The notes beneath the pieces were generated by a model that had not been told where the DNA came from, did not search any database, and saw only the letters and a program-made list of their open reading frames with translations. Below are positions 15,897 to 59,301 of a stretch of 64,000 bases of DNA, one piece after another (within the stretch, counting starts at the first letter, position 1; the number at the start of each line of letters is the position of its first letter). Source of the stretch: an uncultured Granulosicoccaceae bacterium (GTDB lineage: Bacteria > Pseudomonadota > Gammaproteobacteria > Granulosicoccales > Granulosicoccaceae); contig CALGKA010000018.1 of NCBI GenBank assembly GCA_937927895.1, forward strand, positions 1 to 64,000, in the 5' to 3' direction. The position numbers and the translations under genes are program-made.

Positions 15897-16442
15897 TTAC
15901 GCTACAAAGACATTCTGGAATTTCGATTTCAGATATTCCATTTGATCCGTTAGCACGTTGCGGTTATCAAGATAGAACCATTCGTACAAATTCGGCGCGA
16001 ACGGAATTGCCAGCAATTCAAGCCCTGCTTCTTCAGGCGTTTTATCTGCTTTGTAGTTATTGCACTTGCGGCAAGACGTTACGCAGTTTTCCCAAACATC
16101 TCTGCCGCCACGTGATCGTGGGATCACATGATCACGCGAATGTTCACGCGCTACGAACGTGTGGCCGCAGTACAGACACATGTGATCATCCCTGGCGAAC
16201 AACACCGGGTTACTGATCTGCGGAACCATTTGCTCAACCACGCGGCCTTTCACCGCAATAATCGCAGGGATATCGAGTTGCGATTGTTCACCGCTATTTT
16301 GGAAACCACCGCGCAGGCTGATTGCTAGGCTACCCATTTCCCACAGCACCTGGCCTTTTGATTTAGCGGTTGCTGCATCTTCGTAGTTGATCCACGCTTG
16401 CGGTGAACCGGCTTTGTTTAGTTTAAGAATTTCCGTTTTCAT
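15897..16442 (-). CDS. HNH endonuclease family protein
   Basis: CLYCGHTFVAREHSRDHVIPRSRGGRDVWENCVTSCRKCNNYKADKTPEEAG, canonical HNH with CxxC pairs. Confidence 0.92.
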   Translation of the reverse strand: MKTEILKLNKAGSPQAWINYEDAATAKSKGQVLWEMGSLAISLRGGFQNSGEQSQLDIPAIIAVKGRVVEQMVPQISNPVLFARDDHMCLYCGHTFVAREHSRDHVIPRSRGGRDVWENCVTSCRKCNNYKADKTPEEAGLELLAIPFAPNLYEWFYLDNRNVLTDQMEYLKSKFQNVFVA

Positions 16443-16586: not shown

Positions 16587-16614
16587 TTGACATCATAATT
16601 TAAAAGCGTATAAC
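16587..16614 (+). promoter_or_regulatory. sigma70-like promoter
   Basis: TTGACA (16587-16592), 16-nt spacer, TATAAC (16609-16614). Confidence 0.6.
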
Positions 16615-16620
16615 ACACCT

Positions 16621-16770
16621 ACTATGTTTACAAAACCAACAACAGAACGCACGAACATTCGCCATCAAGTGATGGGGAACTGTTGGTGTGTGTGGGTCTT
16701 GTAAAGTGATTTGATTATTAATACATCTATTTATTTTATAAAGGCCCGCTCACTGAAGCGGGTTTTTTTT
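16621..16770 (+). ncRNA. candidate structured small RNA of about 150 nt
   Basis: Follows a sigma70-like promoter and ends in a strong terminator; nested helices TTTACAA/TTGTAAA (16627/16699), CCAACA..AG/CTGTTGG (16636/16680), CCATC-AAGT-GATGG (16662-16675); no ORF of at least 60 aa. Confidence 0.55.
16745..16770 (+). terminator. Rho-independent terminator
   Basis: CCCGCT-CACTGA-AGCGGG followed by TTTTTTTT. Confidence 0.85.
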
Positions 16771-17021
16771 GCCTGTTTTTATTGAGTTAGATTCTCACTG
16801 TGTCAGGTATTTAAACTACAGGTGTAGTTTTTACACATACCTACTATTTTTTTGCAGCCTGCTTAACCGTAGGTTGGGGATAACTGTTGCCGATGGATTT
16901 CTATGACAGTAGGACTGCAACTGATTTTTTTGACAACAAAATTTTTATATAACAGAGGAAAAAATAACGAACACTTTTTTTAGTCAATAAATATTGCTTT
17001 AGAAACAATGAAAAAGGTAAT

Positions 17022-17095
17022 GGTGAATGTAATGTAGCGGCAGCATGACTGACTGTGAATCAGTTCGGCAGGGTTCGAATCCCGCGTTCACCCCA
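17022..17095 (+). tRNA. tRNA-His(GTG), divergent
   Basis: G-1, acceptor GTGAATG/CGTTCAC, C73, CCA encoded; anticodon arm ACTGA-CTGTGAA-TCAGT; T loop TTCGAAT; short D loop AGCGGCA. Confidence 0.85.
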
Positions 17096-17115
17096 TTTTT
17101 TCCGACCAATTGTTT

Positions 17116-17188
17116 TTCCCGGCAAACCAATAGTGAGACGCTGAGCTGATAAGTCAGCTGTAATTGATCTGTTGCTTACATCGGGAAT
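17116..17188 (+). tRNA. tRNA-Ile(GAT)-like, degenerate
   Basis: Acceptor TTCCCGG/TCGGGAA; anticodon loop CTGATAA; T and D arms not canonical; no encoded CCA. Confidence 0.45.
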
Positions 17189-17260
17189 CAAAAATTTACT
17201 ATGCACTGAATTTCCTTTGAAGAATATTTCGGTTGATAACTAATCAGTGCAAACAATTTT

Positions 17261-17336
17261 AGAAGCGTAGCTCAATAGGCAGAGCATCCGGCTTTTAACC
17301 GGAAGGTTGTGGGATCGTTGCCCACCGCTTCTACCA
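17261..17336 (+). tRNA. tRNA-Lys(TTT)
   Basis: Acceptor AGAAGCG/CGCTTCT; TCCGG-CTTTTAA-CCGGA; GTGGG-ATCGTTG-CCCAC (atypical T loop); ACCA. Confidence 0.88.
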
Positions 17337-17344
17337 AATAAGTA

Positions 17345-17419
17345 GCCCGATTGGCTGATGACTGGTTTAGCACCTGTTTTGTAAGCAGGGGATTAGCAGT
17401 TTACATCCGTCATTGGGCG
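17345..17419 (+). tRNA. tRNA-Thr(TGT)-like, degenerate T arm
   Basis: Acceptor GCCCGAT/ATTGGGC; CCTGT-TTTGTAA-GCAGG; T arm poorly paired; no CCA. Confidence 0.55.
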
Positions 17420-17431
17420 CGAAGTTTTTGA

Positions 17432-17502
17432 ACGTCATTCAAGTGGTTGAGTTTGGGTCTCCAAAACCTGAAACGAAGGTTCGACTCCTTCATGGCGTGC
17501 CA
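17432..17502 (+). tRNA. tRNA-Trp(CCA), compact (71 nt)
   Basis: Acceptor ACGTCAT/ATGGCGT; TGGGT-CTCCAAA-ACCTG; GAAGG-TTCGACT-CCTTC; GCCA; D arm reduced to TCAA-GTGG-TTGA. Confidence 0.8.
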
Positions 17503-17508
17503 GTTTAT

Positions 17509-17582
17509 ATCTCGGCGATGTGATGGTGGCATATCTGCCTTTCAAGCAGAGTGAGCGGGTTCGATTCCCGTCCGAGATACCA
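17509..17582 (+). tRNA. tRNA-Glu(TTC)
   Basis: Acceptor ATCTCGG/CCGAGAT; TCTGC-CTTTCAA-GCAGA; GCGGG-TTCGATT-CCCGT; ACCA. Confidence 0.88.
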
Positions 17583-17587
17583 GGTAA

Positions 17588-17662
17588 GGGACTGTGATAG
17601 AGAGGCTATATCTCGGATTGCAAATCCGCTGCACGCAGGTTCGAATCCTGTCGGTCCCTCCA
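17588..17662 (+). tRNA. tRNA-Cys(GCA)
   Basis: Acceptor GGGACTG/CGGTCCC; anticodon loop TTGCAAA; GCAGG-TTCGAAT-CCTGT; TCCA. Confidence 0.85.
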
Positions 17663-17663
17663 A

Positions 17664-17741
17664 GTTGCAGACTATGCCGATATGGTTTCGCATCGGTTTG
17701 AAGAGCCGATAAAGCAGGTTGGATACTCGCAGTCTGCAACC
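17664..17741 (+). tRNA. tRNA-Phe(GAA)-like, with extended 10-bp terminal stem
   Basis: GTTGCAGACT...AGTCTGCAAC perfect 10-bp terminal pairing; TCGGT-TTGAAGA-GCCGA anticodon arm; atypical T arm; no CCA. Confidence 0.5.
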
Positions 17742-17749
17742 GTTTTTAA

Positions 17750-17820
17750 GCTCCGGCTTCCGGGAAGAACCTTTCGTTACATGAAAGGTGTGCAGTGTTC
17801 GATTCACTGACGGAGTACCA
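17750..17820 (+). tRNA. tRNA-Val(TAC)-like, very short D arm
   Basis: Acceptor GCTCCGG/ACGGAGT (6 of 7); CTTTC-GTTACAT-GAAAG; CAGTG-TTCGATT-CACTG; ACCA; D arm CTTC-CGG-GAAG. Confidence 0.7.
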
Positions 17821-17822
17821 AA

Positions 17823-17898
17823 CAAGGTGAGATGCCATTGGAGGCATACCAGTCTTCTAAACTGGCCGTAGCGGGTTCGAGTCCTGCCACCTTGACCA
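17823..17898 (+). tRNA. tRNA-Arg(TCT)
   Basis: Acceptor CAAGGTG/CACCTTG; CCAGT-CTTCTAA-ACTGG; GCGGG-TTCGAGT-CCTGC; ACCA. Confidence 0.88.
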
Positions 17899-17902
17899 TA
17901 TT

Positions 17903-17974
17903 GCTTCCGCCATGGGATATGGACTTGCGTCTACGAAACGCGATGAATAGGTTCGACTCCTATCGGAAGCGCCA
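17903..17974 (+). tRNA. tRNA-Arg(ACG), compact
   Basis: Acceptor GCTTCCG/CGGAAGC; TGCGT-CTACGAA-ACGCG; ATAGG-TTCGACT-CCTAT; GCCA. Confidence 0.85.
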
Positions 17975-18037
17975 TTTTTACAAAATGGTCTCGATATGCG
18001 TGCTAACTTGTCTATACAAAACGGTTTGGGATTCCCT

Positions 18038-18358
18038 ATGGCAAGCTACATAGTATTTAACTACAACATTACCGATCGCAGCAAAATTGAGGAACTAACA
18101 AAATTATCTTTGCCAATAAATTCACAATACAGCGCAGAGGTAATAGTCGGCAGCCCGGTCAAAGCTGTTGAAGGTACCGCAATGACACACATGGTAATCC
18201 TGAAATTCAAAAACTTCGACGCTGCAGAAGCCTATTACTATTCACCCGAACACACTGAACTGACCAGGTTAAGAAATCAAATCACTGAAGGCTGGGCTGC
18301 GATTGTTCCAGGTGACTCAGAAACACAGAAAATAATAGACTCGGGATATTTTGATTAG
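18038..18358 (+). CDS. DUF1330 family protein
   Basis: MASYIVFNYNITDRSKIEELTKLSLP...VVILKFKNFDAAEAYYYSPEHTELTRLR-type motif; internal ATG preferred over ORF start 17996. Confidence 0.75.
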   Translation: MASYIVFNYNITDRSKIEELTKLSLPINSQYSAEVIVGSPVKAVEGTAMTHMVILKFKNFDAAEAYYYSPEHTELTRLRNQITEGWAAIVPGDSETQKIIDSGYFD

Positions 18359-20096: not shown

Positions 20097-21548
20097 TCAC
20101 ATTCTAGACAATCGCTGCTTTTCTTTCTGGCGCTCTTTTTTCTCTATGCTTCGTCGCTTAGCGCGCTTACGCCACGGAACATTGCGTTGATTGTCTCCGG
20201 CCATAATAGAGCCATACGGCAAGACCTTATCAACCACATCGGCAAGACCGAAGTCACTCATATCACGCATCACGTTGCCGGCGTCTTTATAAGCACTTGG
20301 CAACTCCGATATATCTGGCGTGCCACTGTAGAATCGAACATCCAGACCCGCAGTTTCAGCTTTCATAATTTCAGCCTCTGTGCGGCCATGCATTCTTTTC
20401 TTATGCTGCGTTCGACTCATGTTACGGCCTGCACCATGCGGTGCAAAGCCACGGTTAGTTTCGTTACGCTCGCCTTTAACAAACAAGATTGGCTGCGACA
20501 TATTCAGCGGTACAATTTGTACATTGCTGGTATCAGGCATGAAGTCATTATGAATGGGAGTCGCACCTTTTGCGTGCCAAAAAATGCTACTACCGTCTGT
20601 ATCAACTTCACGAAACACAAAGTTATGCTCGTTCCAGAACCGTGTACTAATTTCACCGTTAACCGCTTCAAGTGTAAGATCGTGCAAGCTAGTGTGGTTT
20701 TCTTTTGTCCAATCACGTACTACTTGCAATGCTTTCCAATACGCTCGACCTTCATCGCTTTCAAACGGAATCCATGCGTTGGCTTTGGCCGTAGATGGCG
20801 ATAACTTCTCACGCCACTGCAATGCGCGCTTCATACCTTCTTTATACAAACGTGCACCAAAACCACGTGAACCATGATGCGTTACCAGCACTGTTTGCCC
20901 GGTAGATTCAAGCGACCCGATAAACATAAAGTGATTACCATCACCCTGTGTTCCCATATGCGTTCGGGCAATATCTGCCAAACCGTTATACGGCAATGCA
21001 GCCACAGACGCCGCTAGTGATTCAGACAACGGCAAAGCTCGCGCGGCTTCACGACCACCAGGGCCAAAGTGCGTTGCTTTATGTGCCGCTTCCATCACTT
21101 GTGCAGGGGTAGAATCTTCAAATACGGTAGCCATCAAAGAACAACATATATCGGCTGAGTGCATACCAGGGATAATCGCATCGCGTGCAGCCACCACACC
21201 ACCAACAGGAATGGTACCTACAGGCCCTGCTGGGCACGCATCAGGCATTACCGCGCCTTCTAATACCACAGGTGTTCGCAATACAACGTCCATTGTCTTA
21301 TGCACGGCTTCAACATTTGCAGCCTCAAGATCATTACTAGCTGTGATGTTGTACTGGCAAGGTGCTGGCGTTTCACGTTGTGGCAATACAGGTGCGGGTT
21401 CATATTGCTTTATAAGTGCTAGAACCTCTGCCTCTGAATGCGAGCTAGCGTTAACTATTCGCAAAATCTCACCCAACTCCGGGCCTGAAACACCGCCCAT
21501 TGCTAGTAGCATTTTTCCTGTGTACTTCATTTGATCTACCACGATCAT
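20097..21548 (-). CDS. rtcB: RtcB family RNA ligase
   Basis: PVGGVVAARDAIIPGMHSADICCSL, MGTQGDGNHFMFIG, VTHHGSRGFGARLY, GFAPHGAGRNMSRTQHKKRM: RtcB metal and guanylate-site motifs. Confidence 0.9.
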   Translation of the reverse strand: MIVVDQMKYTGKMLLAMGGVSGPELGEILRIVNASSHSEAEVLALIKQYEPAPVLPQRETPAPCQYNITASNDLEAANVEAVHKTMDVVLRTPVVLEGAVMPDACPAGPVGTIPVGGVVAARDAIIPGMHSADICCSLMATVFEDSTPAQVMEAAHKATHFGPGGREAARALPLSESLAASVAALPYNGLADIARTHMGTQGDGNHFMFIGSLESTGQTVLVTHHGSRGFGARLYKEGMKRALQWREKLSPSTAKANAWIPFESDEGRAYWKALQVVRDWTKENHTSLHDLTLEAVNGEISTRFWNEHNFVFREVDTDGSSIFWHAKGATPIHNDFMPDTSNVQIVPLNMSQPILFVKGERNETNRGFAPHGAGRNMSRTQHKKRMHGRTEAEIMKAETAGLDVRFYSGTPDISELPSAYKDAGNVMRDMSDFGLADVVDKVLPYGSIMAGDNQRNVPWRKRAKRRSIEKKERQKEKQRLSRM

Positions 21549-21633
21549 CTCCTTGTTGACGTTGCTTTTGACAACTCTTTTGGCTTATGGCCATTGTTAC
21601 TACTGATTTTCAGGTGATACACACAGGCAAAAA

Positions 21634-21660
21634 AAAGGCCCGCGTGTAGCGGGCCTTTCT
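21634..21660 (-). terminator. Rho-independent terminator upstream of rtcB
   Basis: Minus strand AGGCCCGCTACACGCGGGCCTTTTTTTT. Confidence 0.8.
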
Positions 21661-21974
21661 CAGTAATTCAAAAATATGAAACTACCAGACCCACAAAAAC
21701 ACCTTGCCATCCCGCTTTTGGCGGCTATGGAAGTTCTCTTGCTCATTGAGCACTATGGCGGATAGGTTGTTCATGGCGCGCCAGTATACAGACATTTCAA
21801 CTTGCGTCTAGTGTGATTTGTTACAGATAGACAGAAGTCAAAACACACGGGGTTACAGCGCGAACTTATGCAACCTCTCTCAGCTGTATATTCAGCCTGT
21901 TATAGAACTGTGATTAATTTTGCTGACAGGCTCGCTAAGCTCCTACTTCCATTACCCCATTAGGAGCCAAGCAA

Positions 21975-58258: not shown

Positions 58259-59022
58259 ATAAAAAGCTTGCCGTCTTTCACTTCGATATCTTCAATACCA
58301 TCTGCTAAAGATTTCCAGAAGCCATCGGAGCCACCAAATTCCTGTACCAAATCGATATTTTTAATTCCGCCCAGCCAGGCATTAGGTATTGGTACACCCC
58401 AAACACTTACCCCTTGCATAATAATTTCTGGTCTACCATTCTTATAAGATACTTCGGTGCCGCCACTCACTTTAAGCGTTTTACCACCGAAGAAAGGAAA
58501 GTCCGGGTCTAGAGGCAATAGCAATTTAATGCTTGCCACATCATCACCTAAGTGCACAACTAACTGCTCGGCTAGATCAGTGTTCTTGGCAAGTAGGGAG
58601 TTGAGTTCGCGTTCGGTAAGTTCTATACGCCGTTTGCTGTCATCTTCTTTATAGGATTCTGGTACTAGCTCGCCGTTGTCGCCTGGCTGCAATTCGCCTG
58701 TGTTGAACTTGGCGCTTAGGTCTGCTTTAAAATCGTCATTGATGTCTTGGTTTGCAGCATCATTTTCGATTGCTGCGAATGCAGAGGTTGTGCTTGTATC
58801 GTTGTTTCCAAGGGCATCAAGTTTTTGTTCCAGGGTTTGTTGCTCTGTCTTGCTGAGTTCCACGGGTTTGAAATTTTTACTAAACAGCTGGCTTTGAATG
58901 GCCCAGACTGTCGCACCGACGGTCACGATGATTGTTAACAAAAGTAAACCCACGATCGCCAGACAACCAAGTTTACCGGCCTGATTTTTTTTTGTTTTAA
59001 CTTGAATTTTCATTGCAGGCAA
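58243..59022 (-). CDS. hypothetical membrane-anchored protein
   Basis: 259 aa with N-terminal TM segment and a large periplasmic region. Confidence 0.7.
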   Translation of the reverse strand: MPAMKIQVKTKKNQAGKLGCLAIVGLLLLTIIVTVGATVWAIQSQLFSKNFKPVELSKTEQQTLEQKLDALGNNDTSTTSAFAAIENDAANQDINDDFKADLSAKFNTGELQPGDNGELVPESYKEDDSKRRIELTERELNSLLAKNTDLAEQLVVHLGDDVASIKLLLPLDPDFPFFGGKTLKVSGGTEVSYKNGRPEIIMQGVSVWGVPIPNAWLGGIKNIDLVQEFGGSDGFWKSLADGIEDIEVKDGKLFIQLAE

Positions 59023-59301
59023 TTAATTGACTCCAGTGGTGTTGCAGATGGTAAAGCGCTAATCTTACTCTTAATTTCAGGCAAAGATTTGCAAGGTTTA
59101 CGGTAGTTAAACTTGTATTCGGTTTCATTTATGATCGAAAATAAAGTTGGCCAATGATAGTGATGAATCTCAACAGTAACCTAGAGGTAATGGTCAACGA
59201 TACTAAAGAGTACGTAAATTGGGGAACCTGTTTCTTGTCGATAACAATTGTTGTGAGTTTGGGCTTTCAGTGGGAAACCAACTAAAGTCTGAGTTTGATC
59301 A

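Follow-up and report, generated by a model that had tools for sequence, protein, structure and literature searches.

The DNA analysed here (the window) is a stretch of 64,000 nucleotides, contig CALGKA010000018.1, from an uncultured Granulosicoccaceae bacterium whose gammaproteobacterial draft genome comprises 4.55 Mb in 168 contigs and is 92.6% complete. It carries an array of eleven tRNA-shaped units, all on the same strand, at positions 17022–17974. The array is preceded by a short leader open reading frame (ORF) and an intrinsic terminator, and genes for an HNH endonuclease and an RtcB RNA ligase lie close by. tRNA genes were called with ARAGORN, with Rfam RF00005 at its gathering score, with a stem/loop search and by eye. 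Two of the loci used for comparison, L066 and L072, belong to another genus of Granulosicoccaceae. The units are:

17022–17094, plus strand: tRNA-His(GTG) with the G-1:C73 pair and CCA (ARAGORN; Rfam 45.6 bits)
17116–17189, plus strand: degenerate tRNA-Ile(GAT)-like unit, no T arm, no CCA (sequence; intact orthologue in L072 and L066)
17261–17336, plus strand: tRNA-Lys(TTT) with CCA (ARAGORN; Rfam 64.7 bits)
17345–17419, plus strand: tRNA-Thr(TGT), T arm damaged, no CCA (Rfam 31.2 bits; intact orthologue in L072)
17432–17502, plus strand: tRNA-Trp(CCA), short D arm, CCA encoded (ARAGORN; Rfam 33.1 bits)
17509–17582, plus strand: tRNA-Glu(TTC) with CCA (ARAGORN; Rfam 50 bits)
17588–17662, plus strand: tRNA-Cys(GCA) with CCA (ARAGORN; Rfam 49.7 bits)
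17667–17738, plus strand: tRNA-Phe(GAA), T arm damaged, no CCA (stem/loop search; L066 and L072 orthologues with CCA)
17750–17820, plus strand: tRNA-Val(TAC), short D arm, CCA encoded (stem/loop search; 85–86% identical to the L066 and L072 orthologues)
17823–17898, plus strand: tRNA-Arg(TCT) with CCA (ARAGORN; Rfam 32.7 bits)
17903–17974, plus strand: tRNA-Arg(ACG), short D arm, CCA encoded (stem/loop search)

Six units were called by ARAGORN (His, Lys, Trp, Glu, Cys and Arg-TCT) and these, together with Thr, are the seven that reach the Rfam gathering score (31–65 bits). The Val-TAC, Arg-ACG and Phe units fit the stem/loop search. The Ile-like unit was recognized by eye only, from seven acceptor pairs and an anticodon stem with one mismatch; it has no canonical T arm. 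These calls confirm the eleven tandem units described in an earlier note, which was made from the letters alone. The near-zero spacing which it reported holds from Lys onward (about 3–12 nt) but not for the 166-nt gap between His and Lys, which contains only the degenerate Ile unit. The note also had several units without an encoded CCA: this is true of Ile, Thr and Phe, but most (eight of eleven) encode it. In these three units the normal T arm is gone together with the CCA, and their counterparts are intact in L066 and L072. The G-1:C73 pair kept by the His unit is an identity element of histidyl-tRNA synthetase. The Lys unit has the T loop ATCGT instead of TTCGA (A54/T58 for T54/A58), as do Met, Gln and Phe units of L066, L072 and L073, and this swapped loop is conserved between genera.

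Housekeeping copies are present in the genome for eight of the array anticodons (His, Thr-TGT, Glu, Cys, Phe, Val-TAC, Arg-TCT and Arg-ACG). Array units share 56–73% identity with the housekeeping tRNAs for the corresponding anticodons, and their anticodon arms are unlike those of the housekeeping tRNAs except in the anticodon loop. This bears out the view of the array as accessory and divergent; the units are not sole copies that score as normal tRNAs. Copies of Lys, Trp and Ile outside the array were not found in the rest of the draft. Congeners carry Lys and Trp copies and some array-free congeners also lack Lys, so that these absences probably reflect assembly gaps.

Upstream of the array lies the element on which our interpretation centres:

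16587–16614, plus strand: promoter-like TTGACA-N16-TATAAC (sequence; spacing the same in relatives)
16624–16704, plus strand: leader ORF of 26 codons, MFTKPTTERTNIRHQVMGNCWCVWVL followed by a stop codon (codon comparison with locus L037)
16690–16700, plus strand: antiterminator strand GTGTGGGTCTT in the last leader codons, complementary to the 5′ arm of the terminator (duplex −15.9 kcal/mol)
16743–16770, plus strand: intrinsic terminator GGCCCGCTCACTGAAGCGGGTTTTTTTT (sequence)

The short ORF and intrinsic terminator typical of an attenuator thus stand before the tRNA genes (16624–16704 and 16743–16770), and the alternative pairing of leader and terminator 5′ arm is predicted. The promoter-like box falls below the threshold or the spacing rule of a simple promoter scan. 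The final base of its TATAAC is 9 nt upstream of the start codon of the leader, which would give a nearly leaderless transcript. The 25 residues after Met include 16 different amino acids and end in CWCVWVL. When the full window leader is folded the antiterminator is strongly favoured (z = −5.04), which makes it an exception among the leaders that we examined. A blind scan for the element on both strands of the 64 kb gave three matches: the array, rtcB and one near 59 kb. This third match (about 58950–59150, minus strand) combines a leader-like ORF and a terminator-like signal near an ORF with no Pfam match, and is probably due to chance. Control of the array by sigma-54 and RtcR was also considered and rejected: the GG-N10-GC-like motif noticed near 16875 is downstream of the terminator, and a search of the draft genome for RtcR (PF06956) gave no match while a control search detected RtcR in E. 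coli.

Between the terminator and the first tRNA are 250 nt. This distance, and anticodon arms that depart from those of the housekeeping tRNAs outside the loop, would suit an array that is a constitutive tRNA supplement or an anticodon-nuclease decoy, with a promoter of its own after 16770 and with the leader and terminator forming a separate small transcript. There is no good promoter match on the plus strand between 16770 and 17022, and many genomes, as well as phage contigs, have the leader element in front of arrays and rtcB. We regard this explanation as quite improbable; a supplement made only when translation fails fits the anatomy better than a decoy.

Within the family, the layout of ORF and terminator was found before six arrays and nine rtcB genes, those of the window included in both counts. 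In most of these leaders the start codon follows the −10-like box by 7–9 nt, which again would give a nearly leaderless message; the ORFs measure 72 to 174 nt and the stop codon is separated from the T-run by 45–58 nt. For 12 leaders, the pairing energies between leader end and terminator arm sum to −176.5 kcal/mol, compared to −118.3 ± 7.9 for shuffled leader ends (0/1000), and leaders pair better with their own terminators than with swapped partners (P = 0.002). The best-pairing part is the 3′ end of nearly every ORF. At L062 the terminator arm reads GGCCTGC (GGCCCGC in most) and the leader GTAGGTC (GTGGGTC in most), with both pairings kept. The parts of the element, their recurrence, the complementarity and the amino-acid coverage described below are observed directly, and the switch itself is predicted by folding. 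With a ribosome placed at each codon in turn, the model yields the antiterminator for most stall positions and mostly loses it near the stop codon, a result that holds only while the 3′ arm of the terminator is not yet made. A DNA pattern search for a wider regulon in the genus returned only the two array elements and unrelated matches.

The same organization is met in phage contigs. Among relatives of the window HNH protein in IMG/VR, 63 of 80 loci hold at least five tRNAs; in these 63 phage-contig loci all 1121 tRNAs lie on the HNH strand, at a median distance of 64 nt, and sampled neighbour proteins of the HNH loci match phage families. The likeness to phage arrays noticed earlier is therefore supported by the HNH subfamily. 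The leader–terminator element was detected in 15 of 37 regions upstream of phage-contig arrays and in 2 of 220 control windows, both control matches being the same real leaders. Although these leaders were picked by criteria blind to composition, all 15 include 18–20 of the 20 amino acids. Taken together, five leader families present 99 of 100 possible amino acids, where same-length random protein segments reach 80.3 ± 3.7 (maximum 93 in 20,000 draws). The five families are mostly without detectable mutual similarity, two pairs being borderline. Searches of named phages with two of the leaders and of plasmids with one gave no match. Some phage-contig arrays also lie beside tmRNA genes of the betaproteobacterial (permuted) type (L168:11734-12110 and L220:4968-5323).

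This coverage bears on whether the leader is a general sensor or an ordinary attenuator that monitors just one or two amino acids, perhaps Trp or Cys as the CWCVWVL ending might imply. Passages of PMC12121999 describe classical leaders as watching one amino acid or drug, and the array leaders of the family are enriched in Trp, Cys, His and Met. No single repeated residue is common to the leaders, however; their sequences are almost completely different while amino-acid coverage is kept, and the array itself serves many amino acids. We therefore consider an ordinary attenuator very unlikely. The idea that the amino acids of a leader strictly match the tRNAs of its array was rejected: it holds in the window and fails in L066 and L072.

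Associated with such arrays is the gene of an HNH endonuclease:

15897–16442, minus strand: array-associated HNH endonuclease, divergent from the array (PF14279/PF01844; relatives; phage-contig arrays)

It adjoins the window array on the opposite strand and is co-directional and downstream in other genera. On the same strand 3′ of the arrays, HNH genes are found in L066, L071, L072 and L073 and RtcB genes in L066 and L071. The window departs from this arrangement, with an inverted HNH gene and an RtcB gene that faces the array from 2 kb away. L066 and L072 carry the units of the window in the same order within longer arrays of about 18–21 tRNAs (stem/loop search): Asn, Gln, Asp, His, Ile, Met, Lys, Thr, Trp, Glu, Cys, Phe, Val, Arg, Arg, and then Leu, Tyr and Ser units. 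This shared order argues that the window units are not chance. Over ten units compared with these relatives, 161 of 166–167 stem pairs stay paired, with 63–64 double changes per comparison; the count is somewhat overstated because units were located partly by their pairing, and unit order is independent of it. Judged from these comparisons of sequence and gene order, the window array is a rearranged and shortened version of a module that is more complete in related Granulosicoccaceae. It is not the stand-alone array envisaged earlier but belongs with the HNH gene and the RtcB ligase and has its own leader-peptide and terminator element. The HNH protein may have a role in mobility or in changing the tRNA repertoire, as proposed for phage arrays (PMC5966550). 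A possible remnant of a lost tRNA-Asp at about 16889 was rejected, its 17 similar nt being not above shuffled sequence, and named phages gave only short matches to one or two units of the window or L072 arrays.

Arrays were found in about 6 of 48 genomes of the family, and in the window's genus most genomes lack one. This raises the possibility that the array is a decaying relic acquired from a phage or mobile element, with leader and terminator as leftovers and tRNAs without effect. The earlier note had listed a relic among its options, and part of that stands: the Ile, Thr and Phe units are damaged, the linkage of the array to HNH and RtcB is broken up in the window, and the array copy of genome G001 is worse still, Thr having fused with Trp and Glu having lost its anticodon. 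On the other hand, eight units keep their CCA and their paired stems through many double changes, the His unit keeps G-1:C73, and leader, terminator and complementarity are intact. Moreover, differences between the second halves of the window and L037 leaders are nearly all synonymous. A relic without function thus appears unlikely. The window array is nevertheless partly decayed and may be on its way out, while the rtcB switch persists in the genus.

The ligase gene has an element of its own:

20097–21548, minus strand: RtcB RNA ligase of a divergent subfamily (PF01139; metal- and GMP-site motifs)
21682–21774, minus strand: rtcB leader ORF MNNLSAIVLNEQENFHSRQKRDGKVFLWVW followed by a stop codon, after TATACT at 21783–21788 (sequence; blind scan)
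21629–21655, minus strand: intrinsic terminator GGCCCGCTACACGCGGGCCTTTTTTTT between rtcB leader and rtcB, its 5′ arm complementary to the leader end TGTGGGTCT

This is the only RtcB found in the genome. The Cys/His metal-binding and GMP-binding residues that define RtcB are present: C135, H206, H224–H225, H308 and H371 are conserved in alignment with solved RtcB chains and do not vary within the subfamily. Its nearest relatives are from uncultured Granulosicoccaceae, and the genome has no RlaP with which to form an RlaP-type RNA repair operon. In Bacteroidota, 9 of 74 loci of the same RtcB subfamily have at least five tRNAs in the fetched stretch; they lie near arrays of 7–18 tRNAs (L086:2676-10623, L102, L108, L121, L128, L132, L138, L139 and L153). 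L086 has an additional second RtcB and an RF-1-domain (PrfH-like) protein, as in the RtcB2–PrfH pair. Only 1 of 55 loci of viral RtcB relatives has at least five tRNAs, and RtcB was therefore rejected as a companion of phage arrays. The same attenuator was not found before rtcB in Bacteroidota or Alphaproteobacteria; alphaproteobacterial matches to the element look like the end of the upstream gene and were discarded. At L063:690-5230, a leader-like ORF, two overlapping hairpins and a tRNA-Arg(TCT) without CCA are followed by Band-7, RlaP and RtcB genes, an RNA repair operon headed by a tRNA.

We consider it likely that the array is a reduced chromosomal form of a phage-type module of replacement tRNAs and an HNH gene, held off by a leader-peptide attenuator that senses translation. 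Transcription would start at or beside the leader start codon. A ribosome finishing the leader on time would cover its last codons, allowing the terminator to form and keeping the tRNAs silent. A delayed or stalled ribosome, or none at all, at almost any codon before these last ones would leave them to pair with the 5′ arm of the terminator instead, and RNA polymerase would read through into the tRNAs. Most amino acids occur in the leader, and nearly all twenty in those of the phage contigs, so that the switch should be triggered when almost any charged tRNA is lost or elongation is blocked. Since the same element stands before rtcB in the family, replacement tRNAs and an RNA-sealing enzyme may answer one alarm. 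The HNH and RtcB genes downstream of family arrays, the RtcB genes near arrays in Bacteroidota, the L063 operon and the Anabaena regulon described below speak for this link to RNA repair. From this anatomy we infer expression of the array, its natural signal, the charging of its tRNAs and a benefit to the cell. More generally, it seems rather probable that leader peptides spelling all twenty amino acids poll the whole pool of charged tRNAs and that phages and some bacteria release tRNA arrays, and Granulosicoccaceae also RtcB, upon tRNA loss or ribosome stalling.

Several observations weigh against an attenuator of this kind. At equilibrium, most full leaders are predicted to fold with the terminator formed, and the switch must for this reason rely on the antiterminator forming first during transcription. 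The family leaders are shorter than those of the phage contigs and their amino-acid excess is weaker (184 against 166.6 ± 5.8, and against 171.5 ± 5.2 for random nucleotides). No element match was obtained in 22 of the 37 phage-contig regions, and the family rtcB loci L060 and L063 have no element directly before rtcB. Of the nine leader-bearing rtcB genes, two (L045 and L064) contain stop codons, and three tRNA units of the window array itself are damaged.

Four known systems come close. Mycobacteria, mycobacteriophages and plasmids contain tRNA array units with HNH endonucleases (Morgado and Vicente 2018, PMC5966550). Like the window array these are dense same-strand clusters, patchy and phage-linked, with HNH as the most widespread companion gene. 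They are defined by at least 20 tRNA genes and at least two per kb: the window reaches the density, with seven Rfam-supported units (11 in total) in 0.95 kb, but not the size, with 11 at most. A text search of PMC5966550 gave no mention of RtcB, a leader or a promoter, whereas the window module has both RtcB and a leader. In Anabaena sp. PCC 7120, the trn operon is silent, being repressed by TrcR, and is induced by translation inhibitors; the same repressor controls rtcB, HNH genes and a slipin gene as well (PMC10272220). It resembles the window in its accessory tRNAs beside a housekeeping set and in its linkage of rtcB and HNH, but is controlled by a protein repressor at the promoter rather than by a predicted leader-peptide attenuator (PMC10272220). 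In E. coli, passages on toiL describe a multi-drug-sensing upstream ORF in which stalls at various sites expose the downstream gene (PMC12121999). On that description toiL, like the window leader, is a short ORF acting as a general translation sensor; the window leader differs in having an intrinsic terminator before tRNA genes, and the passages on toiL do not describe coverage of all amino acids (PMC12121999). RtcR-controlled rtcBA operons also tie RtcB expression to damaged tRNAs (PMC7790460), but in this genome no RtcR gene was found and rtcB has its own leader and terminator. We found no paper on a leader-peptide attenuator before tRNA arrays or rtcB in a literature whose coverage was incomplete, most subscription papers and all bioRxiv-only preprints lying outside it.

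The spare tRNA arrays of phages and bacteria are usually explained by codon usage or by escape from anticodon nucleases. If our interpretation is correct, they would be emergency replacements, silent until tRNAs are lost, which is a direct and testable answer. The leader would monitor translation in general, where classical attenuators respond to a single amino acid, and tRNA replacement would be tied to RtcB, whose bacterial role is still debated.

The surroundings of the arrays show some further features. In line with the earlier note, the neighbouring genes that were inspected showed no integrase and no phage structural gene. In L066 (1250–3100, minus strand), REP-like palindromic repeats lie inside three array tRNAs (a Trp copy, Leu and Ser), in two of them at the anticodon loop; beside an RtcB ligase they recall tRNA introns but look like mobile elements. 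Between its Lys and Thr units the same array contains a hydrolase-like gene (L066:3240-4500, minus strand) whose start resembles that of a lipoprotein. Directly 3′ of the window array is a DUF1330 gene (17996–18358), and a gene 61% identical to it is located 1.7 kb before the array of another genus (L073:5418-5717).
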